In this document: piece after piece, positions 4,561 to 63,014 of the stretch | Position numbering within the stretch: position 1 is the first letter of the stretch | How the letters are laid out: the number at the start of each line of letters is the position of its first letter | Assembly: GCF_027625475.1 (NCBI RefSeq) | Contig: NZ_CP115174.1 | Span: 3,752,501 to 3,816,500 of the forward strand | DNA from: Sphingomonas abietis | GTDB taxonomy: Bacteria > Pseudomonadota > Alphaproteobacteria > Sphingomonadales > Sphingomonadaceae | Direction: 5' to 3' | Length of the DNA stretch: 64,000 nt | Program-made: the position numbers and the translations under genes | The notes under the pieces: generated by a model | What the model was told of the DNA's origin: nothing | Database searches by the model: none | What the model saw: only the letters and a program-made list of their open reading frames with translations

Positions 4561-7263
4561 ATGAAGACCACCAATCTCATAATCATGTTGATGAGCGGCA
4601 CCGCCTTGAGCTTTTGCGCCCCCGCATTCGCTCAGGCGACCGATGCGGCCGGTGCCGCCGGACCACAAACGTCCGCGACGCCGGCAGCGCCGGCAGCGTT
4701 GGCAGCGCCGGCAATCGACACGCACGCAGCCGCCCCCGCCGGTTCGGGCGATTCCGCGATCCAGGAGATCGTCGTGACGGGCTCCAGCATCCGCGGCGTC
4801 GCACCGACCGGATCCGCCCTGACCAGCGTAACCCATGCCGACATCGTCGCAACGGGCGCTTCAACCACCACGGAATTGCTGCGTTCGGTGCCCCAGCTCG
4901 GCAGCTTCGGCGCGACGGGGAACAACACCGGCGGCAACTCGGCGAACATCGTGGATCAGCCCGCGATCCACGGTATCGGCGTGGGCAATGGCGGCGGCGG
5001 CCTCACGCTTGTCCTCGTCGATGGTCTGCGCCTGCCGGGTGCCGGCATCAACCAGACCGCGCCGGACCCAAGCGCCATCCCGCCATCGGCGATCGAACGG
5101 ATCGAGGTCGTGGCGGATGGCGCGTCTTCGATTTACGGGTCTGACGCCGTCGCCGGCGTCGTCAACTTCATCCTGCGCAAGAATGTGAATGGCATCGAGG
5201 CGAACGGACGGGTCGGCTTCGGAGACGGATATCGGACCTATAATGGCAGCGTCCTTGCCGGCAAGACATGGAGCAGCGGCTCCATCATGTTCGACTATGA
5301 ATATTCGGAGAATTCCGAACTCAATGGGCAGGAACGCCGCTACTATCACATGCAGACGCCATCGACGCTCTGCAACCCGGCCAATGTCACCGTCGGCGGC
5401 GTCAATTACGCCCTGTCGGGTACGGGCGCGATGGCTGGCGGCACCAACACGTGCGACGTCAACAAGGCGAATGACCTGTTTCCAGCCCAACATCGCCATC
5501 AAGGCCTGATCTCCTTGCGTCAGAAGATTGGCGACAGCATCACGTTTCGGGCCCGCAGCATCTATTCCCGCCGGTCGGTGGACTCGCGGCAGGCTATTTC
5601 CGGCAGCAACGTCGCCAGCGGCGGTTTGAGCGTGACCGAGACCGGAGGGCCGTTCTACGATTATGTCGTCGGCCTTGGCGTCCCCGCCGGCCCCCAGGCG
5701 GTGACCTATAACCCTTCGGGCGACCTCGGCCAGACCGTCACCAACCGGATCCGAACCGAGACATGGTCGTCGAATATCGGGCTCGACGCGGATCTGTTCA
5801 GCGACTGGAAGGGGTCGATCGACTTTAATTATGGCCGCGAGCGCGACCGCATCTGGCAACCCGGCATCAACCAGACGCTGCTGCTTTCGCTGATCGCCAG
5901 CGGTCAATATAACCCTTACGGCGTGGGGCCGGCCAATACGGCCGACCTCGTCTCGCAGGTCGGCAACTACCGCACCCATTATTATGGTCAGCAGACCGTG
6001 CTGGAGGGCCTCGCCAAGGTCGACGGCACGCTGTTCCAGCTGCCTGGCGGCGCGGTGAAGGCGGCGCTCGGCACCGATCTGCGCCGTGAGCGCTTCGGCG
6101 CCACCGTATCGGTCGGCCCGGACGGCACGCCGACCCAGACCACATCGGTGGGGACACGCAAGAGCTATTCCTTCTACGGGGAATTGTTCGTCCCGATCTT
6201 CGGCACCGACAATGCGATGCCGGGCTTCCAGAAACTCGATCTGTCCGTCTCCGGCCGGTACGATCATTATGACGATGTCGGCGGCACCACCAATCCCAAG
6301 GTGGGCTTAAATTGGAGCCCCATCGACAGCCTGACATTGCATGGCAGCTTCGGCAAATCCTTCCACGCACCAAGCCTCGCCGATGCGGGCACCGCGATCG
6401 ACACGCGCGTGATCCGCTTTGCCGACTTCACCGGCGCCGGATCGAGCGCCTATTCGATCATCCTCGCCGGCGGCAATAAACTGCAACCGGAAAAGGCGAC
6501 GACCTGGTCGCTTGGCGGCGATTTGAAGCCCGTCTTCCTGCCCGGCTTCAAGATCAGCGCGTCATACTTCAACATCGACTATAAGAATGTCATCACCTTC
6601 CCGGGGTTCAACGTCGTCACCGAGCCCAACAACCCGATCTATGACCGTTATCGGGTCTATGCGCCGACCGCGGCCGAGATATTGGAAGCGACCGCCGGGA
6701 TGCGCCACGATGGCCTGTCCTATCCCGACGTGACCCAGCTTCCGACCGCGATCTACGATCTGCGTCGCCAGAATTTCGCGCGGCAGAAGATCGACGGCAT
6801 CGATTTCGACATATCCTATGCCTTCACCAGGGCCTATGGCTCGTTCAACATCGGCGCGGCCGGAACCTGGTTGTGGAAGTTCGACCAGAAGATCAACGGC
6901 GACACGGTCACGACCAGCCGCCTCAACACCAATTATGCCGTCAACTTCAAGGCGCGCGCGCATCTCGGCTGGGCGCAGGGGCCGTTCGACGCGACGGCCT
7001 TCGTCAACTACATCAACCATTATCGCAATCCGATCGACGACAGCCGGGTCAAGGCTTTCACGACTGTCGATTTCCATGGTGGTTGGAAGCTTCCGCTCGC
7101 GGGATTCGCCCGAGATACGCAACTGACCGTGGACGTGAACAATCTCTTCGACAAAAATCCGCCCTATTTCTACGACGCGGGCAACGGCGCTTATGGTTAT
7201 GATCCGACGACGGCGTCGGCGCTCGGCCGGGTGGTGTCGGTGGGTATCCGCAAAAAATTCTGA
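4561..7263 (+). CDS. TonB-dependent outer-membrane receptor
   Basis: A 900-residue receptor. It has a signal peptide (MKTTNLIIMLMSGTALSFCAPAFAQA), an Ala/Pro-rich stretch, a TonB-box-like IQEIVVTGSSIRG, a plug domain (about 75-200, with ELLRSVPQLG and VLVDGLRLPG...IERIEVVADGASSIYGSDAVAGVVNFILRK), and a long beta-barrel ending in RKKF with the terminal Phe expected of outer-membrane barrels. The ATG at 4561 is preferred over one 18 bases upstream because AAGGGG is correctly spaced before it. It sits between the lldD operon and a secreted GH3 enzyme and shares the operator-like motif of the rhamnonate genes. A sugar or glycoside ligand is therefore likelier than iron, but this is inference. Confidence 0.92.
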   Translation: MKTTNLIIMLMSGTALSFCAPAFAQATDAAGAAGPQTSATPAAPAALAAPAIDTHAAAPAGSGDSAIQEIVVTGSSIRGVAPTGSALTSVTHADIVATGASTTTELLRSVPQLGSFGATGNNTGGNSANIVDQPAIHGIGVGNGGGGLTLVLVDGLRLPGAGINQTAPDPSAIPPSAIERIEVVADGASSIYGSDAVAGVVNFILRKNVNGIEANGRVGFGDGYRTYNGSVLAGKTWSSGSIMFDYEYSENSELNGQERRYYHMQTPSTLCNPANVTVGGVNYALSGTGAMAGGTNTCDVNKANDLFPAQHRHQGLISLRQKIGDSITFRARSIYSRRSVDSRQAISGSNVASGGLSVTETGGPFYDYVVGLGVPAGPQAVTYNPSGDLGQTVTNRIRTETWSSNIGLDADLFSDWKGSIDFNYGRERDRIWQPGINQTLLLSLIASGQYNPYGVGPANTADLVSQVGNYRTHYYGQQTVLEGLAKVDGTLFQLPGGAVKAALGTDLRRERFGATVSVGPDGTPTQTTSVGTRKSYSFYGELFVPIFGTDNAMPGFQKLDLSVSGRYDHYDDVGGTTNPKVGLNWSPIDSLTLHGSFGKSFHAPSLADAGTAIDTRVIRFADFTGAGSSAYSIILAGGNKLQPEKATTWSLGGDLKPVFLPGFKISASYFNIDYKNVITFPGFNVVTEPNNPIYDRYRVYAPTAAEILEATAGMRHDGLSYPDVTQLPTAIYDLRRQNFARQKIDGIDFDISYAFTRAYGSFNIGAAGTWLWKFDQKINGDTVTTSRLNTNYAVNFKARAHLGWAQGPFDATAFVNYINHYRNPIDDSRVKAFTTVDFHGGWKLPLAGFARDTQLTVDVNNLFDKNPPYFYDAGNGAYGYDPTTASALGRVVSVGIRKKF

Positions 7264-7343: not shown

Positions 7344-9647
7344 ATGACCGTGAAGACCAGCCTGATACAGGCCTCGCTCAAGCCCGGCATCGGCCTGGCG
7401 CTGTTGCTCTCCTCGACGATGCTCGCCGCGCAGGCGCCCGCGCGTTCCGGCACCGCGCTCGCCGAGCGGGTGGATGCGCTCATCGGCAAGATGACGTTGG
7501 ACGAGAAGATCGCGATGGTGAACGGCACCTTCGGCAGCGCGCTGCTCAAGACCAAGCCGGACGAGAAGCGTAACGGTGCCGGCCATGTCCCGGGCGTGGC
7601 GCGGCTCGGTATCCCCGACCTGTTCGAGAGCGACGCCAGCCTCGGCGTCGCCAACGGTGGCGAGATGCGCAAGGGCGACGTCGCGACCGCGCTGCCCTCC
7701 AGCCTCGCCACCGCGGCGAGCTTTGAACCGCAGATCGCCTATGTCGGCGGCGCGATGATCGGCGCAGAGGCCCGTGCCAAAGGCTTCAATGTCCTGTTGT
7801 CCGGCGGCGCCAACCTCACCCGCGATCCATGGAACGGTCGCAACTTCGAATATCTGGGCGAGGATGTCTGGCTCACGGGCGTCATGGCCGGCGCGAGCAT
7901 CCAGGGTGTCCAGTCGAACGACATCGTCTCGACGATGAAGCATTTCGCGCTCAACGCGCAGGAGAGCGGCCGCAACGTCCTCGACGCGCGCATGGCCGAA
8001 GCGCCGATGCGCGAGAGCGACCTGCTCGCATTCGAGATCGCCAACGAGCGGGGCCAGCCCGGCTCCGTGATGTGCGGCTACAATCACGTCAACGGCGACT
8101 ATGATTGTGAGAATGCCTTCCTGCTGAACGACGTGCTGAAGCGCGACTGGGGCTTCAAGGGCTGGGTGATGTCGGACTGGGGCGCGGTCCATTCGACGGT
8201 GAAGGCCGTCAACGCGGGGCTCGACCAGGAATCCGGGCAGGAGCTCGACACCCAGCCTTTCTTCGCTGCGCCGCTCAAGGCGGCGGTGATGGCGGGCAGC
8301 GTGCCGCAGGCGCGGCTCGATGACATGGTGCGCCGCATTCTCCGCACGATGATCGCACACGGTCTCGTCGACCACCCGACGCCGACCACACCACAGGCGA
8401 TCGACTATGACGCCCATGCCGAGATCGCCCAGCGCGCGGCAGAAGCGGGCATCGTCCTGCTCCGCAACGACGGCCTGCTGCCGCTCGCGGCGACCGCCCG
8501 GCACATCCTCGTCATCGGCTCCCATGCCGACAAGGGCGTGCTGTCCGGCGGCGGCTCGTCGCAGGTCCGTTCGGTCGGAGGGTTGGCATCTGAAGAGCCG
8601 ATGCCCGGTGGCGGGCCGCTCAGCAGCTTCATCAAGGTGAGCTACCACGCCTCCTCCCCGCTCGATGCGATCCGCAAGCGGGCGCCGGGGGCGGAGGTCC
8701 GCTATCTCGATGGCGAAGATGCCGAAGCGGCAGCCGCCGCGGCGCGATCGGCGGACATCGTGCTCGTCTTTGCGCACCAATGGCGTACCGAGGCCGTCGA
8801 TGTCGACACTCTGGCGCTGCCCGATGGGCAAGACGCGCTAATCGATGCCGTCGCGTCCGCCAATCCGAAGACGGTCGTGATCCTCGAGACCGGCGGCGCG
8901 GTGCTGATGCCCTGGCGCGACAAGGTCGGCGCGGTGCTCGAAGCCTGGTATCCCGGCCAGCGCGGCGGCCCCGCGATCGCCCGCGTCCTGTTCGGCGAGG
9001 TCAATCCCGGCGGGCGGCTGCCGCTCACCTTCCCGGCGAGCGAGGCCCAGGCGCCCCGTCCGCAAATCCCGGGCCTGGCGTCGGTCAAGGCAGCGGCGGC
9101 GAGGAATGCCGGCAAACCCGCGATGCTCGATCTGTCGACGGTGGATCTGACAGGTGGCGTCGCCGAATTCACCGTCGACTATCCCGAAGGCGCCGACGTC
9201 GGCTATCGGTGGTATGCAGGCCAGGGCACCAAACCGCTGTATCCGTTCGGCTTCGGGCTTTCCTATAGCCAGTTCGCCTATAGCCGGCTGACGCTGGCGG
9301 GGGGGCGGACGCCGACGATCAGCTTCCGCGTCACCAATACCGGCAAACGAGCCGGCGCGGACGTGCCGCAGGTCTATGCGAACGTGGCTCTCGGCAAGGG
9401 TGCCGCGCTGCCCCGGCTGGTGGGATTCGAACGGGTGGTGCTGAAGCCCGGTGAGACGCGCACCGTCTCCGTCACCATCGATCCACGCCTGATCGCGCGT
9501 TACGATGGGACGGCAAGGGCGTGGAAAGTGGCGGCTGGCTCGCTGCCGATCATGGTCGGCACCGATGTGCAGACGCCGGTGTTGAGCGGCACCGTAGCCG
9601 TCCCCGCCCTGAGCCTCCCCGCCGAGGCCTCGAACATCTCGAAATGA
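7344..9647 (+). CDS. Secreted GH3 beta-glucosidase-type glycoside hydrolase
   Basis: A 767-residue family 3 glycoside hydrolase. It has a signal peptide (about 1-35, ending MLAAQAPA), the N-terminal TIM-barrel with KGFNVLLSGGANLTRDPWNGR and KHFALN, the nucleophile Asp278 in GWVMSDWGAV, the alpha/beta sandwich domain, and a C-terminal fibronectin-III-like domain (VTNTGKRAGADVPQVY). It would remove glucose or a related sugar from glycosides in the periplasm or outside the cell. The start is ATG 7344; a GTG six bases later has better spacing from AAAGGA and is an alternative. It follows the TonB receptor across a terminator and is related to the GH3 enzyme at 14220. The exact substrate cannot be read from the sequence. 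Confidence 0.92.
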   Translation: MTVKTSLIQASLKPGIGLALLLSSTMLAAQAPARSGTALAERVDALIGKMTLDEKIAMVNGTFGSALLKTKPDEKRNGAGHVPGVARLGIPDLFESDASLGVANGGEMRKGDVATALPSSLATAASFEPQIAYVGGAMIGAEARAKGFNVLLSGGANLTRDPWNGRNFEYLGEDVWLTGVMAGASIQGVQSNDIVSTMKHFALNAQESGRNVLDARMAEAPMRESDLLAFEIANERGQPGSVMCGYNHVNGDYDCENAFLLNDVLKRDWGFKGWVMSDWGAVHSTVKAVNAGLDQESGQELDTQPFFAAPLKAAVMAGSVPQARLDDMVRRILRTMIAHGLVDHPTPTTPQAIDYDAHAEIAQRAAEAGIVLLRNDGLLPLAATARHILVIGSHADKGVLSGGGSSQVRSVGGLASEEPMPGGGPLSSFIKVSYHASSPLDAIRKRAPGAEVRYLDGEDAEAAAAAARSADIVLVFAHQWRTEAVDVDTLALPDGQDALIDAVASANPKTVVILETGGAVLMPWRDKVGAVLEAWYPGQRGGPAIARVLFGEVNPGGRLPLTFPASEAQAPRPQIPGLASVKAAAARNAGKPAMLDLSTVDLTGGVAEFTVDYPEGADVGYRWYAGQGTKPLYPFGFGLSYSQFAYSRLTLAGGRTPTISFRVTNTGKRAGADVPQVYANVALGKGAALPRLVGFERVVLKPGETRTVSVTIDPRLIARYDGTARAWKVAAGSLPIMVGTDVQTPVLSGTVAVPALSLPAEASNISK

Positions 9648-59208: not shown

Positions 59209-59742
59209 TCAATCGTCGGGCGGGATGTAGTCGGGATGAAACCCGTCGCCGTCGGCATCGGCGATCTCGTCTGGCCACCAGTCGCGCGACACCTGGATCA
59301 TCGGCGACTTCTCAAATGCCGGCGGCAGGGTCGGCTCGCGGTCGAAGCCAATACGCAGCCAAGCGCCCCACGGCGCGCGCTCCTGGAAGATCGCGAAGAC
59401 GTCCCGCGCTGCTGCCCATGCCTGCCGGATCAGGATCGTCCGGTCGGCACTGATATAGCCGATCTGGACGCCGGTCTTCGCATAGACCGCGATGGCGTTC
59501 GCATCAGCCGTGTTCTCAGGCTCCGCGCGCAGGGAGACGACGTCGCCCGGCTCGGTGAACATGATTTCCATCTCGCGATTGCCGGTCGGCTCGCCCTTGC
59601 GCTTCGGATTGGCGAAACGAGCACCGACGCAGGCGACCGTCAATTCCTCGACCGCCGGCGCAGACGATGCCGCCGCTTGGGCCCTCAGGCGCTCCAAGAG
59701 TCGGGCCTTGCCGGTCTCGATCAGCGGCCCCTTCCTCGGCAT
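59209..59742 (-). CDS. HIRAN-domain protein
   Basis: A 177-residue protein with a HIRAN domain at about 34-125: TVACVGARFANP, GDVVSLRAEPENTADANAIAVY, GVQIGYISADRTILIRQA. The domain binds 3' ends of single-stranded DNA in helicases and nucleases and occurs alone in phages. The C-terminus (WWPDEIADADGDGFHPDYIPPDD) is acidic. Its start overlaps the YozE-like stop as TGATG, so they are coupled. It probably serves phage DNA metabolism. Confidence 0.8.
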   Translation of the reverse strand: MPRKGPLIETGKARLLERLRAQAAASSAPAVEELTVACVGARFANPKRKGEPTGNREMEIMFTEPGDVVSLRAEPENTADANAIAVYAKTGVQIGYISADRTILIRQAWAAARDVFAIFQERAPWGAWLRIGFDREPTLPPAFEKSPMIQVSRDWWPDEIADADGDGFHPDYIPPDD

Positions 59743-59966
59743 CAGTAGCTTAGCCAGTCCGTCTCGGCTTCATCAACGGCCTCGAACAGATCGCCTTCCG
59801 CCTGCATCGCGGAGAGATGCTTGCGGATATCCTCCGGGCTGCCGTTGCGCGGGAAGCGCCGGTCGGCCTTGGCGCCGTCGACCAGCTGGCCGACGAGGCC
59901 ATCCCGATCACGCTGGGCGAGCAGCCACGCGCCGAATGTTTCGCCCTGGTCGTTCACCTGCACCAT
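59742..59966 (-). CDS. YozE/UPF0346-like SAM-fold protein
   Basis: A 74-residue protein matching the YozE SAM-like pattern: ETFGAWLLAQRDRDGLVGQLVDGAKADRRFPRNGSPEDIRKHL. Such domains may bind DNA or protein; function is not established. It is coupled to the HIRAN gene. Before the transposon inserted it was about 50 bases downstream of the integrase stop, so both probably shared a transcript. Confidence 0.7.
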   Translation of the reverse strand: MVQVNDQGETFGAWLLAQRDRDGLVGQLVDGAKADRRFPRNGSPEDIRKHLSAMQAEGDLFEAVDEAETDWLSY

Positions 59967-59987: not shown

Positions 59988-59995
59988 AATATATC
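59988..59995. repeat. Target-site duplication, left copy
   Basis: AATATATC, identical to the copy at 63007-63014 on the other side of the transposon. Eight bases is the usual duplication length for IS1595-family elements. Confidence 0.92.
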
Positions 59996-60018
59996 GGGAC
60001 CTATATACCTAACTAGCC
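59996..60018 (+). repeat. Left terminal inverted repeat of the IS1595-type element
   Basis: Twenty-three bases starting GGGACCTATATACC and ending TAGCC. It matches the reverse complement of 62984-63006 except at position 5 (C here, A there). Confidence 0.9.
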
Positions 60019-60026
60019 GCGAGCCA

Positions 60027-60758
60027 TCAAAAGACTGCGCCTTCTGGCGGTTGTATCTGCCCCCAGCGCTCTGCGATCCCGGCGCAAGCCGCACGAACCT
60101 CGTTAAACCGATAGACTGCGTTCGTCGGGGCGGCGTGAACCTGCCCGGTCCACATATCGATGGCGACACACATTTCCTTTTCAGGATCTACGTCACCCAA
60201 GCCCTGCTTAACCTTCGTATCAAGATAGCCAAATGAGATAGCACCTTGCCAACACGCCACATCATCGCCGAGCGCCTTGTTCTTCCCATATCGAAAGAAC
60301 GCAACGCCGAGCTTAGGAACGTTGCGGATGTTGACCCGCTTAAGAAGGAGATCAGGGCTGAAAGAGAGTTGGAATCCATAAATGTCGAGGCCGGGCATTT
60401 TGCCCGCTTTCGTCACCTCTTGGACGCGCGCGGGCAGCGTCGGCTGCTTCTCGATAAACCGTTCGATGTAGTCAGCATTGTGCTCTGCTACCTCATTATC
60501 GAAATCCGACCCATGAAGGCCATTGCGCAGAATGTCCGCTTGGGTCTGTAGCCGCCCGCCCCCGAAGTCCCCGCTTGACAGGTGCTGCGCAATCGATTCT
60601 TTCGCCTCTTGATGCTGGATAACCCGCGCTCTTGGCATGTATTTGCAGCTTCTGAGAATGCTGCGCCGAGCCTGTTCGCTCGCTGCCATGTAATCTGCGA
60701 GCCGGTTGGTGGACATACCTGGCTGCTGGCGAACGTTGTGGGTTTTATCGTTGGTCAT
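60027..60758 (-). CDS. Transposon passenger gene, unknown function (243 residues)
   Basis: The protein (MTNDKTHNVRQQPGMSTNRLADYMAASEQARRSILRSCKYMPRARVIQHQEAKESI...) has a basic helical N-terminal region and a beta-rich C-terminal half (LDIYGFQLSFSPDLLLKRVNIRNVPKLGVAFFRYGKNKAL, CVAIDMWTGQVHAAPTNAVYRFNEV). No family was recognised. The codon use is less GC-rich than host genes. It ends close to the left transposon end and is divergent from the small plus-strand gene, with 22 bases between the two start codons. Being carried by a transposon next to a possible defence gene, a role in phage defence or maintenance is conceivable, without motif support. Confidence 0.65.
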   Translation of the reverse strand: MTNDKTHNVRQQPGMSTNRLADYMAASEQARRSILRSCKYMPRARVIQHQEAKESIAQHLSSGDFGGGRLQTQADILRNGLHGSDFDNEVAEHNADYIERFIEKQPTLPARVQEVTKAGKMPGLDIYGFQLSFSPDLLLKRVNIRNVPKLGVAFFRYGKNKALGDDVACWQGAISFGYLDTKVKQGLGDVDPEKEMCVAIDMWTGQVHAAPTNAVYRFNEVRAACAGIAERWGQIQPPEGAVF

Positions 60759-60780
60759 GCATCTCACCCGGAGAGAAACG

Positions 60781-60996
60781 ATGGCTAGCCTTTATCTTAG
60801 CGGGATTGGCGATTGTGGCAAAACGTTGTCGCTCAAGCCGCTTACAAAGCGCGCTGCACAGCACATCGACCCACCCCCCGGCGACATAAGTGGCTATTTC
60901 TTAGTCGAAGAGGGCAATGGGGAAACGGCCGTGCTTGCTCGCGTGGATGGCGAGGAAGCAGTGTTGCGGCTTGGGAAGCTACTCGGACTCGTATAG
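60781..60996 (+). CDS. Small transposon passenger gene, unknown function (71 residues)
   Basis: MASLYLSGIGDCGKTLSLKPLTKRAAQHIDPPPGDISGYFLVEEGNGETAVLARVDGEEAVLRLGKLLGLV. GGAGAGAAACG precedes the ATG, giving a good site. It is the only gene of the element on the plus strand, divergent from the 243-residue gene and ending three bases from the convergent BstA-like gene. No family was recognised. Its size fits a small regulator or antitoxin. Confidence 0.6.
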   Translation: MASLYLSGIGDCGKTLSLKPLTKRAAQHIDPPPGDISGYFLVEEGNGETAVLARVDGEEAVLRLGKLLGLV

Positions 60997-60999
60997 GCC

Positions 61000-62022
61000 T
61001 CAGCCTTCGATTGCCTTCGGCTGGTAAAGAGAGGCGAGCTTCTTTGCTTCATCATCACCTCCCGGAAGAGCATAGGCCTTTTTCAAGATGTATGCGGGAT
61101 ACTTAGTGGGCAAATAGACCTCTCGAAACCACCGCTGATATTCGGCCCAAGCCTCGTTCGGATATGCCCACGCTTCCTGCGGATTGCTAGCACTCTGAGG
61201 AAATTCTGAAGGGTAGTAATGGTTGTATTTGATCCGTGGACCGAAACGATGTTCTAGGTTTTGGGCCGTCCAATAGCGGCCCCAAGTACCCCCAACGCTG
61301 CCATCTGGAATTGTATGGTCATTTACAGTCAGGCCGGCGTTAATCAAATCGACCGTGAGCCCCGCGCTTTCTTTAAAAATGCTGAAATAGCCAACTGGCA
61401 CGCTATCGCGCAGCAGCGATACCCGCGCATTAAAGAACTTCCAAGGGTCTGCAGGCGCATAGTTTAGTGCCTGATAGATGAACTGCTGGATACCAAACCG
61501 GGCGAAGTGCCGGTAATTTGTTAAAGCTGTGTCGTTTACCTTCTGTGCTTCAAACGCAAAATACTCGACGAAAGCCATGCAAACCACATCGGGGTAAGCA
61601 TAGTAGGGTGAGCCGCTTTTAATGATCTCGATAAAGAGACGCGGGTCGTTATAGCCGTTTTTAGTCAGATAATCGTGAAAGTAGGCTATGCGGCTGCGAG
61701 GAGAAATAAGTCCGCTGGTCATCGCGGCTTCCCACTCTTGAGTGATCTCAAAAACGGTCGCTCTCGCAGCACCAGATACGTTCGCCAGGCCAGTCTGGGT
61801 GAGATATGGAATACCGTTCTGCAAAACGCCCATCTCTACCCCGCCAACGGTTCGCTCGACCTCAATGCCGAGGTCTAACGGTAGCTGCGCAGAGGGTGCC
61901 GGAGTTGCGCCGGGTTTAACCACTAACTGCCTGTTATTACTAGACAAAGGGGGTGCCGGAGTTACCATTTTTCGGGCTACATCGTCGAAGCTCGCGTCAA
62001 TCGGCTCAATATCCTTAGGCAT
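61000..62022 (-). CDS. Transposon passenger gene, possible BstA-like phage-defence protein
   Basis: A 340-residue protein. The N-terminal 55 residues are Pro-rich and probably disordered. From about 60 there is a KilA-N/ANT-like DNA-binding segment (VEMGVLQNGIPYLTQTGLANVSGAARATVFEITQEWE), then a long helical body and a C-terminal block SVGGTWGRYWTAQNLEHRFGPRIKYNHYYPSEFPQSASNPQEAWAYPNEAWAEYQRWF. The combination is reminiscent of BstA, a prophage protein that aborts infection by other phages. This is recalled from the family's general layout and is not certain. The start lies inside the transposase gene (8-base overlap), so the two are coupled. Confidence 0.6.
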   Translation of the reverse strand: MPKDIEPIDASFDDVARKMVTPAPPLSSNNRQLVVKPGATPAPSAQLPLDLGIEVERTVGGVEMGVLQNGIPYLTQTGLANVSGAARATVFEITQEWEAAMTSGLISPRSRIAYFHDYLTKNGYNDPRLFIEIIKSGSPYYAYPDVVCMAFVEYFAFEAQKVNDTALTNYRHFARFGIQQFIYQALNYAPADPWKFFNARVSLLRDSVPVGYFSIFKESAGLTVDLINAGLTVNDHTIPDGSVGGTWGRYWTAQNLEHRFGPRIKYNHYYPSEFPQSASNPQEAWAYPNEAWAEYQRWFREVYLPTKYPAYILKKAYALPGGDDEAKKLASLYQPKAIEG

Positions 62023-62941
62023 TGATCAGATCCTTGTAGGTGAGACGCTTGCCGAGCATTCGGCCGGCCGTGGCTTCAATAAAGGCCATTGTGCCGCCCT
62101 GAGCGGTGTTATGGCGGAACGAGAACTCGTTGACGTAGCGGTGCAGATGCTTTGCACTCATGTAGTGGAAGATACCGTAGTGGCCGCGCTTGAGAAGCGC
62201 CCAAAAGCTCTCGATACCATTAGTGTGGGCCATATCGCGGACATACTCGCCAACCGAGTGATTGACCCGAATATGCTTGTAGCCTGACGCCTCGATGCCG
62301 ACGTAGCTCGAATGGCTGTCAGTGACGACGGTAGCGCCGGCCGGGGCGTTATCGCGAATAAAGCCCTGTAGCGTTGCAGCCTTGGTATTGGCGATCGGCA
62401 TGGCTTTGACAGTCGCCGTGCCACGGATGCCGATAACAGCCACCTTGCCGACAGTCCCGCGACCGGCGTTGAGCTTCTTTCTGGCATGCTTATTCTTCTC
62501 GCTGCCGCCGACATAGGTTTCGTCGATTTGGACATGATCGCCCATGTCGCCGCCCTGCTCGCCCAGCCACGTCTCGCGGATGCGCTGGGCGAGAAACCAT
62601 GCCGACTTCTGCGTGATGCCCAACTCGCGGGCCATCTGCGTCGAGGGGATGCCCTTGCGCGCAGTCGTCATCATGTAGATGGCCATCAGCCACTTGTGCA
62701 GCGAGAGGCGGCTTTCGGCCAGCACCGTGCCGGTGCGGACGCTGAAATGCTGGCGGCAATCGCGGCAACGGTAGGGCATGGGCTTCATGCTCTTAACCGG
62801 CGAAACTGAGAGGCTACCACAATGAGGGCAGGAAACTTCGCCGGCCCAACGGTTGTGCTCGAAATACTCCCGCGCTGCCTCCTCGTTCGGGAACTGCTGG
62901 AAGAACTGATAGAGGCTGACGTTTTCGGGCTGGCTGCTCAT
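62015..62941 (-). CDS. IS1595-family (ISXO2-like) transposase
   Basis: A 308-residue DDE transposase. An N-terminal zinc ribbon has Cys38/41/59/62 (CPHCG...CRDC). The catalytic core has Asp140 in HVQIDETYVGG, Asp208 in VVTDSHSSY, and Asn241-x2-Glu244 in THTNGIESFWALLKRG, as in the ISXO2 group. It is complete and the element's ends are intact, so it may be active. The gene begins 65 bases from the right end and overlaps the BstA-like gene at its 3' end. Confidence 0.93.
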   Translation of the reverse strand: MSSQPENVSLYQFFQQFPNEEAAREYFEHNRWAGEVSCPHCGSLSVSPVKSMKPMPYRCRDCRQHFSVRTGTVLAESRLSLHKWLMAIYMMTTARKGIPSTQMARELGITQKSAWFLAQRIRETWLGEQGGDMGDHVQIDETYVGGSEKNKHARKKLNAGRGTVGKVAVIGIRGTATVKAMPIANTKAATLQGFIRDNAPAGATVVTDSHSSYVGIEASGYKHIRVNHSVGEYVRDMAHTNGIESFWALLKRGHYGIFHYMSAKHLHRYVNEFSFRHNTAQGGTMAFIEATAGRMLGKRLTYKDLINA

Positions 62942-62983
62942 GAAACCTAACTAGCCAGAATCGGCATTGCCGTCAAGCGGCTT

Positions 62984-63006
62984 GGCTAGTTAGGTATATA
63001 GTTCCC
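62984..63006 (-). repeat. Right terminal inverted repeat of the IS1595-type element
   Basis: Twenty-three bases ending GTTCCC, the reverse complement of the left end with one mismatch. Confidence 0.9.
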
Positions 63007-63014
63007 AATATATC
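63007..63014. repeat. Target-site duplication, right copy
   Basis: AATATATC, identical to 59988-59995. It covers two of the three bases of the integrase stop codon (63013-63015), so insertion occurred at the gene's very end and left the stop intact. Confidence 0.92.

Follow-up and report, generated by a model that had tools for sequence, protein, structure and literature searches.

BstA is an abortive-infection protein that gathers at replicating phage DNA and blocks phage DNA replication; the members assayed for this activity are those designated BTP1, Kp and Ec, 79% of 72 homologues were located in prophages, and a KilA-N-like N-terminal domain was found by remote methods (Owen et al. 2021, PMC8585504; here and below, statements from this paper refer to the part of its text available to us). 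In phage BTP1, a 63-bp DNA element at the start of bstA, termed aba, gives self-immunity, and mutation showed that its terminal CCCGCC direct repeats are required; that each BstA has its own aba was shown for three systems (Owen et al. 2021). Insertion sequences of the IS1595 family, for their part, sometimes carry passenger genes, as do MTnSag1/tISSag10 and tISCpe8 (PMC5704250, likewise from the part of the text available), as an earlier note on the present DNA had stated in general terms.

Here we analyse a transposon in a 64,000-nucleotide (nt) stretch of Sphingomonas abietis (assembly GCF_027625475.1, contig NZ_CP115174.1, positions 3,752,501 to 3,816,500; hereafter the window, whose coordinates are used throughout). 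With a probability that we put at roughly 0.75, it is an IS1595-type element whose second gene encodes a BstA abortive-infection protein fused to a peptide typical of its group, and it shuttles between chromosome and phages, taking this defence gene and a self-immunity site along as a single unit. The transposase family and the presence of passenger genes link it to the named IS1595 elements; these, however, are mobilisable or resistance-carrying (lincomycin in tISCpe8, according to a title cited there; PMC5704250), whereas in the present group the second gene is a modular fusion of a constant peptide with a BstA, KilA-N, P63C or methyltransferase body. With the BTP1 BstA-aba system (Owen et al. 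2021) it shares a full-length BstA body and a direct repeat of ∼57-bp pitch around the start of that body (56 bp in BTP1), but it is transposon-borne rather than placed behind a phage repressor, its BstA is 37% identical and has the N-terminal peptide fused in front, and both repeat copies lie inside the reading frame. Among the papers listed by searches of the open literature, none was seen, from title or opening of the abstract, to deal with an IS1595 element carrying BstA or with the 57-bp repeat.

A complete-looking IS1595-type transposon

The element spans 3,011 bp (positions 59996-63006) and is bounded by 23-bp terminal inverted repeats that pair with a single mismatch, the left one (GGGACCTATATACCTAACTAGCC) at 59996-60018 on the plus strand and the right one at 62984-63006 on the minus strand. 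It is flanked by exact direct copies of an 8-bp target duplication (AATATATC; 59988-59995 and 63007-63014), a length typical of the IS1595 family. The transposase gene (62015-62941, minus strand, 308 amino acids [aa]) has an uninterrupted frame, and its product matches NCBIfam NF033547 at 190 bits (cut-off 75) as well as two Pfam domains, the ISXO2-like DDE domain PF12762 (E=4.6e-40) and an N-terminal zinc ribbon, PF12760 (E=1.2e-10). Residues D140, D208 and E244, which we take to be the catalytic triad, fall in columns that are invariant over 12 sequences. By its transposase domains, ends and 8-bp duplication we assign the element to IS1595, in agreement with the earlier note, which had proposed an intact transposon of this type with a complete-looking transposase.

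Transposase, second gene and third gene are all encoded on the minus strand and a small gene on the plus strand. The cargo occupies ∼2.0 kb of the 3.0 kb, and its first gene is coupled to the transposase by an 8-nt overlap (ATGCCTAA, 62015-62022), both as the note had described; a purine-rich AAGGAT stands just 5' of the second-gene start. Directly before the transposase start, the inner half of the terminal repeat is found once more in inverted orientation (62945-62956), a possible self-regulation site. Counterparts with 0-3 mismatches were read in 9 of 12 elements, at position 40 in locus L064 and at 51-54 in the other eight, counts made without a shuffled control.

The G+C content of the element is 55.4%, as compared to 62.3% in the 52-60 kb stretch and 63.4% in the window. 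The note had suggested looking for multiple copies, and there is just one: in the genome, a single 4.43-Mb contig, the end sequence occurs at two places only when up to three mismatches are allowed, both being the element's own ends (a backwards control pattern gave 0 matches), and no second transposase match was obtained at E<=1e-3. A search of 401 bp of the left flank against plasmids returned no match, and an Rfam scan of the element at gathering thresholds returned none either.

The second gene encodes a BstA protein

The second gene (61000-62022, minus strand, 340 aa), whose ATG overlaps the transposase stop by the 8 nt mentioned above, matches the PADLOC profile PDLC02356 over positions 4-288 of 292 (E=1.6e-110) and PHROG phrog_6287 (E=6.5e-102). 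On the strength of these profiles the first cargo gene is identified as BstA, a family with abortive-infection activity shown for other members. It sits behind the transposase inside the element and not behind a prophage repressor, which is a frequent but not a defining place for BstA. The alignment of BstA gave no match below E=0.2 against the PDB by sequence, and a single-protein query with bstA gave none in viral contigs. As a side observation, window positions 61870-61887 encode the motif QLPLDL, which we presume to resemble a sliding-clamp-binding motif; a similar Q-hydrophobic-x-L-D-L-like motif occurs in 115 of the best 120 of 701 BstA homologues.

BstA elements recur in other genomes and in viral contigs

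When genome contigs were scanned with the BstA protein, two loci were obtained, L005 (a Rhodospirillales metagenome-assembled genome) and L006 (Pseudooceanicola onchidii), in both of which an IS1595 transposase overlaps bstA by the identical 8 nt. The same arrangement, again with an 8-nt overlap, exists in two further genomes from the window's own family (L023 and L064). Like ends flank all four elements, exact 8-bp duplications accompany them in L005 and L006, and by eye L005, L006 and L064 stand among ordinary chromosomal genes; two more loci, L034 and L062, lie on viral contigs.

These occurrences bear on whether the cargo genes were the prophage's own, with the transposase merely inserted alongside, the outcome that according to the earlier note would have overturned its proposal. 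Such an origin would fit the predominantly prophage location of BstA (79% of the homologues cited above), but all of the cargo lies within the inverted repeats and duplication, and other elements, outside this prophage, show the same gene order and 8-nt overlap. Because BstA elements with like ends exist in other Alphaproteobacteria and in viral contigs, we regard bstA as transposon cargo; the sequence comparison places the cargo with the transposon rather than with the prophage, and we consider a native origin hardly credible. The assignment of the cargo to the prophage itself was accordingly rejected, since elsewhere, in other genomes as well as on viral contigs, BstA is enclosed by ends of this type.

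BstA is uncommon, and some copies lie outside transposons. Seven of 397 genomes matched the window BstA in a search of the family and 5 of 385 in a search of the class. In the family, the matches of the own genome, G514 and G784 are near full length, at >60% identity, and all three are transposon-borne; the match in G723 is a 38-residue piece at 68%. In a BstA tree, L122, a transposon-borne locus, has as its sister L047, beside which no transposase lies, so that such elements have probably gained or lost BstA repeatedly; the label transposon versus non-transposon requires 5 changes over 36 rows, with that of L032 uncertain. L032 begins at a contig edge, so that both its "no transposase" label and its inclusion in the group of 31 bstA loci scored as having no transposase nearby are uncertain. 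The tree was built without L048 and L097 (too short) and L050. L024 and L065, which were counted as non-transposon, have distant IS1595-like transposases (33-36%) lying 1-4 kb off in opposite orientation.

Like ends enclose other cargo

The earlier note had also proposed searching genomes for the same ends with the same or different cargo, and both kinds were found. A profile of 12 transposases retrieved 508 relatives in viral contigs, the best 80 of which were fetched and, with seven other loci including the window, searched for ends. Both ends and an exact 8-bp duplication are present in 25 of these 87 loci, and most of the ends follow the pattern GGGnnnTATATA; two near-duplicate pairs, one with poorly matched ends, account for four of the 25. 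Like ends with exact duplications enclose bstA in the window, L005, L006 and L118, and other bodies in L028, L114, L116, L121 and L124; complete ends of L122 were not found. Among six viral-contig loci with transposases 62-72% identical to that of the window (L058-L063), L058, L059 and L061 have a P63C second gene, as does L028, L060 and L063 have a KilA-N gene, and L062 has BstA; the body of L058 was labelled by its likeness to other P63C bodies.

In more distant relatives the second gene codes for what Pfam identifies as a DNA methyltransferase (L126, L128, L129, L140, L142 and L152) or, in L119, for a type I specificity-like protein, and many others have no recognisable second gene. In L203, a distant IS1595 relative (transposase 42.5%), a Bro-N gene overlaps the transposase by 4 nt and its protein matches the PADLOC candidate PDC-S13 (E=4.4e-118); this element resembles ours in its overlapping second gene, and differs in having another body and no clear type I peptide. 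The second-gene bodies with PADLOC likenesses are BstA, the PDC-S13 candidate and type II and Druantia-like methyltransferases, and the P63C body had no PADLOC match. In L117, the KilA-N body matches the BstA profile with its C-terminal half (E=1.8e-12).

As to the composition of this set, L058-L063 and L113-L116, L118 and L121 are the same contigs fetched twice, and L120/L123, L128/L130, L135/L137 and L187/L192 are near duplicates. L034 and L202 have decayed transposases, which were read in pieces only; the transposase match of L117 was overlong, and trees used the open frame of its best segment only.

Two side observations concern related elements. One genome (G026) contains four copies (L030, L068, L069 and L070) of a distant IS1595 transposase (38%) followed by the same KilA-N gene without the constant peptide, elements that were apparently recently active. 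In L028, a third, solitary terminal-repeat copy (6366-6388) lies 0.8 kb outside the complete element and is a possible relic of another insertion.

A constant peptide precedes different bodies

The BstA-bodied second genes open with a peptide like MPKDIEPIDASFDDVARKMV (pattern IEPIxAxFDxV), encoded in the window by 61963-62022 on the minus strand, at the start of the gene. When a profile built from eight of them was run at E<1e-4 on 102 other second-gene candidates, it matched 13, whose bodies are P63C, KilA-N, methyltransferase or undefined; none of the 31 bstA loci counted as lacking a transposase matched (best E 1.5). The 102 candidates, picked with a preference for some start offsets, include many chance reading frames, and the 13 matches include two near-duplicate pairs; L115 has the peptide by eye and was missed by the profile. 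In 14 of the 21 loci that bear the peptide by profile or eye, the overlap with the transposase is exactly 8 nt, with 4 to 35 nt in the rest. Among the best 120 of 701 BstA homologues the peptide is present in 84, that is, in 84 of the 90 of at least 325 aa and in 0 of the 30 shorter ones. From these alignments, the second gene is seen as modular, with a short constant N-terminal peptide and a body that is BstA, KilA-N, P63C or DNA methyltransferase.

Starred pairs in the larger transposase tree unite different bodies (L005, BstA, with L028, P63C; L006, BstA, with L117, KilA-N; L114, P63C, with L121, KilA-N), and in the smaller tree only L114 with L121 is starred. Body labels need 11 changes over 21 rows of the transposase tree, the shuffled mean being 12.2; since 114 of 500 shuffles gave 11 or fewer, body type is without phylogenetic signal on this tree. 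A second type of peptide occurs in L131, L132, L133, L139, L162, L167 and L169, where a stand-alone basic peptide of 45-55 aa, mostly roughly LDxIADxVLxYRPKPK and of another type than the constant peptide, overlaps a related transposase by 4 nt; in L140, L142, L150 and L155, a start similar to it leads into a methyltransferase-type gene.

This modularity could be read in other ways. The second gene might be mainly a transposition accessory, its peptide docking on the transposase or its DNA complex and its body, as a DNA-binding or DNA-modifying protein of phage type, steering insertion to phage or replicating DNA, with defence being secondary. The constant peptide that spans unrelated bodies, the independence of body type from the transposase tree, the stand-alone peptides behind related transposases and the transposase relatives on 508 viral-contig stretches would all suit such a role. 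However, the viral share is uninformative on targeting because viral contigs were chosen as viral, three BstA elements lie among ordinary chromosomal genes as noted above, several bodies (P63C excepted) resemble PADLOC defence genes, and BstA bodies keep the aba-like repeat described below. Overall we judge an accessory role rather unlikely. Ordinary passenger capture, in which the overlap gives expression to whatever gene has been captured, the peptide being a leftover leader and the cargo unlinked to transposition, is possible, if still short of even odds: IS1595 elements with passenger genes are already known (PMC5704250), and the genes in third position vary, too (Panacea antitoxin, PemK-like protein, the 243-aa family). 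A leftover leader would be expected to drift, yet the profile recovers the peptide across bodies.

A further, distinctly improbable scheme is that of a two-part machine. Here, the peptide would tether the second gene to the complex that carries out transposition, and the body, an exchangeable module that senses phage DNA (BstA, KilA-N, P63C, methyltransferase, perhaps Bro-N), would guide the element into replicating phage genomes and exclude phages without it, the aba repeat sparing carriers. If this were true, the transposon would reward the phages that carry it and act as a self-spreading passport.

A 57-bp repeat as candidate aba

Where the BstA body begins, the window has two copies of AACTCCGGCACCC at a pitch of exactly 57 bp, both inside the bstA frame on the minus strand (first copy 61948-61963, second copy 61891-61906). 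Among 35 dereplicated bstA loci, 19 have a repeat at this pitch with a score of at least 8, as compared to at most one for any other pitch from 20 to 119; the scan left out L032 and L050 (too little sequence) and L045 (a duplicate). It is found in 7 of 7 transposon-borne bstA loci versus 12 of 28 others, and in 0 of 13 second genes with other bodies; in L122, an eighth transposon-borne locus, pitch 57 tied with two other pitches. In L036, L041, L047 and L049 there is no in-frame start 5' of the first copy, which is thus noncoding in these loci. The repeat sequence differs among many bstA loci, some close relatives sharing one, which would fit a separate, cognate aba for every BstA. Since pitch 57 recurs in 19 of 35 loci and the BTP1 aba repeats are spaced 56 bp, as measured on the sequence, it is probable that the transposon brings along a cognate aba for its bstA, and the repeat in the window is the candidate for this self-immunity element.

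Weighing the defence-unit reading

Taken together, the reading that we favour, a transposon that carries a BstA defence gene and its self-immunity site, would work as follows. The inner-half inverted copy near the transposase start may permit self-control, and the second gene would be translated together with the transposase via the overlap. BstA would then suppress the DNA replication of incoming phages, as shown for other BstA proteins (Owen et al. 2021). When a transposon-carrying phage replicates, the multiplied repeats would silence BstA and the phage would be spared, by analogy with the work on aba. In this manner, defence gene and self-immunity site would travel jointly on the transposon, between chromosome and phages.

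A number of observations weigh against this. With a single copy in the genome, recent movement is not demonstrated here, and no target duplication was found for L023 and L064. In the order-wide search, BstA occurred in 8 of 396 genomes and an adjacent transposase only in the window's genome and G514. The window BstA is distant from its BTP1 counterpart (the 37% identity given above), has no Pfam match to a KilA-N domain at E<=1, and belongs to a branch that is not among the proteins assayed in the part of the Owen et al. (2021) text available. At the score threshold, the pitch-57 repeat is absent from 16 of 35 bstA loci; in the transposon copies the repeats are coding, so that protein-level constraint could add to the signal; and at pitch 56 both BTP1 and Pseudomonas phage D14H have a repeat of 7 bases that is below the threshold (score 7 for BTP1) and not the best pitch in the scan. 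Finally, an approximately unbiased (AU) test did not reject a single clade for the five nearest BstA-bodied transposases (p=0.0585), which tells against a clean swap of bodies.

BstA, so far described as mainly prophage-borne, here has a widespread transposon branch, to judge from the peptide in most of the best 120 homologues. Like ends and one constant peptide combined with different bodies would offer a simple route by which defence-like genes could shuffle between phages and chromosomes. The 57-bp repeat would provide a sequence signature for aba, of which the available part of Owen et al. (2021) gives a base-level map from one phage, and it makes the silencing of BstA by aba DNA directly testable in many pairs.

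Further cargo and the host island

The third-position gene (60027-60758, minus strand) encodes 243 aa of an unnamed family with 212 homologues at E<=1e-3. It had no Pfam or PADLOC match, no NCBIfam match above the cut-off and a weak PHROG match; its alignment found nothing below E=0.2 in the PDB by sequence, and a single-protein query nothing in viral contigs. IS1595-type elements repeatedly hold a distant homologue of it next to a small divergent gene. In the window, this small gene (60781-60996, plus strand) encodes 71 aa, and tblastn places counterparts beside third-gene homologues in L034, L201 and L202 (E ∼1e-13 or better), with weaker ones in L005, L204 and L206. L005 has the same order, a small gene with a distant third-gene relative (22% identity, E=4e-13; hhalign probability 99%); its small gene does not align with that of the window but does with that of L204 (E=2e-10). 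In other elements the third position is taken by a Panacea-type antitoxin or a PemK-like protein. Other transposases, too, have distant homologues of the 243-aa protein beside them, namely distant IS1595 types (L204, L206) and another in L205, which by sequence we take to be IS1-like.

The earlier note had seen a possible phage-defence gene delivered into a prophage. The first half of this idea gained from the identification of the cargo as BstA; the prophage nature of the island is only partly supported by its gene content. An integrase (63013-64365) and an adjoining tRNA-Ser (64470-64559, in window coordinates beyond the window end) stand next to the element. Five of 11 island open reading frames scanned matched PHROGs (integrase, baseplate-hub/lysin-like, repressor-like and two of unknown function), and none of the 11 matched a capsid or terminase, so that the island could be a remnant, or else some small phage-like element. 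No empty site of this prophage was found in 10 genomes of the genus, own included, the integrases of the other genomes being 46-57% identical, and a search of the window for an att repeat of the tRNA-Ser gave one unconvincing 14-base match at 9419. Directly beside the insertion site, at window positions 59209-59966, lie a HIRAN-domain gene and a YozE-like gene.

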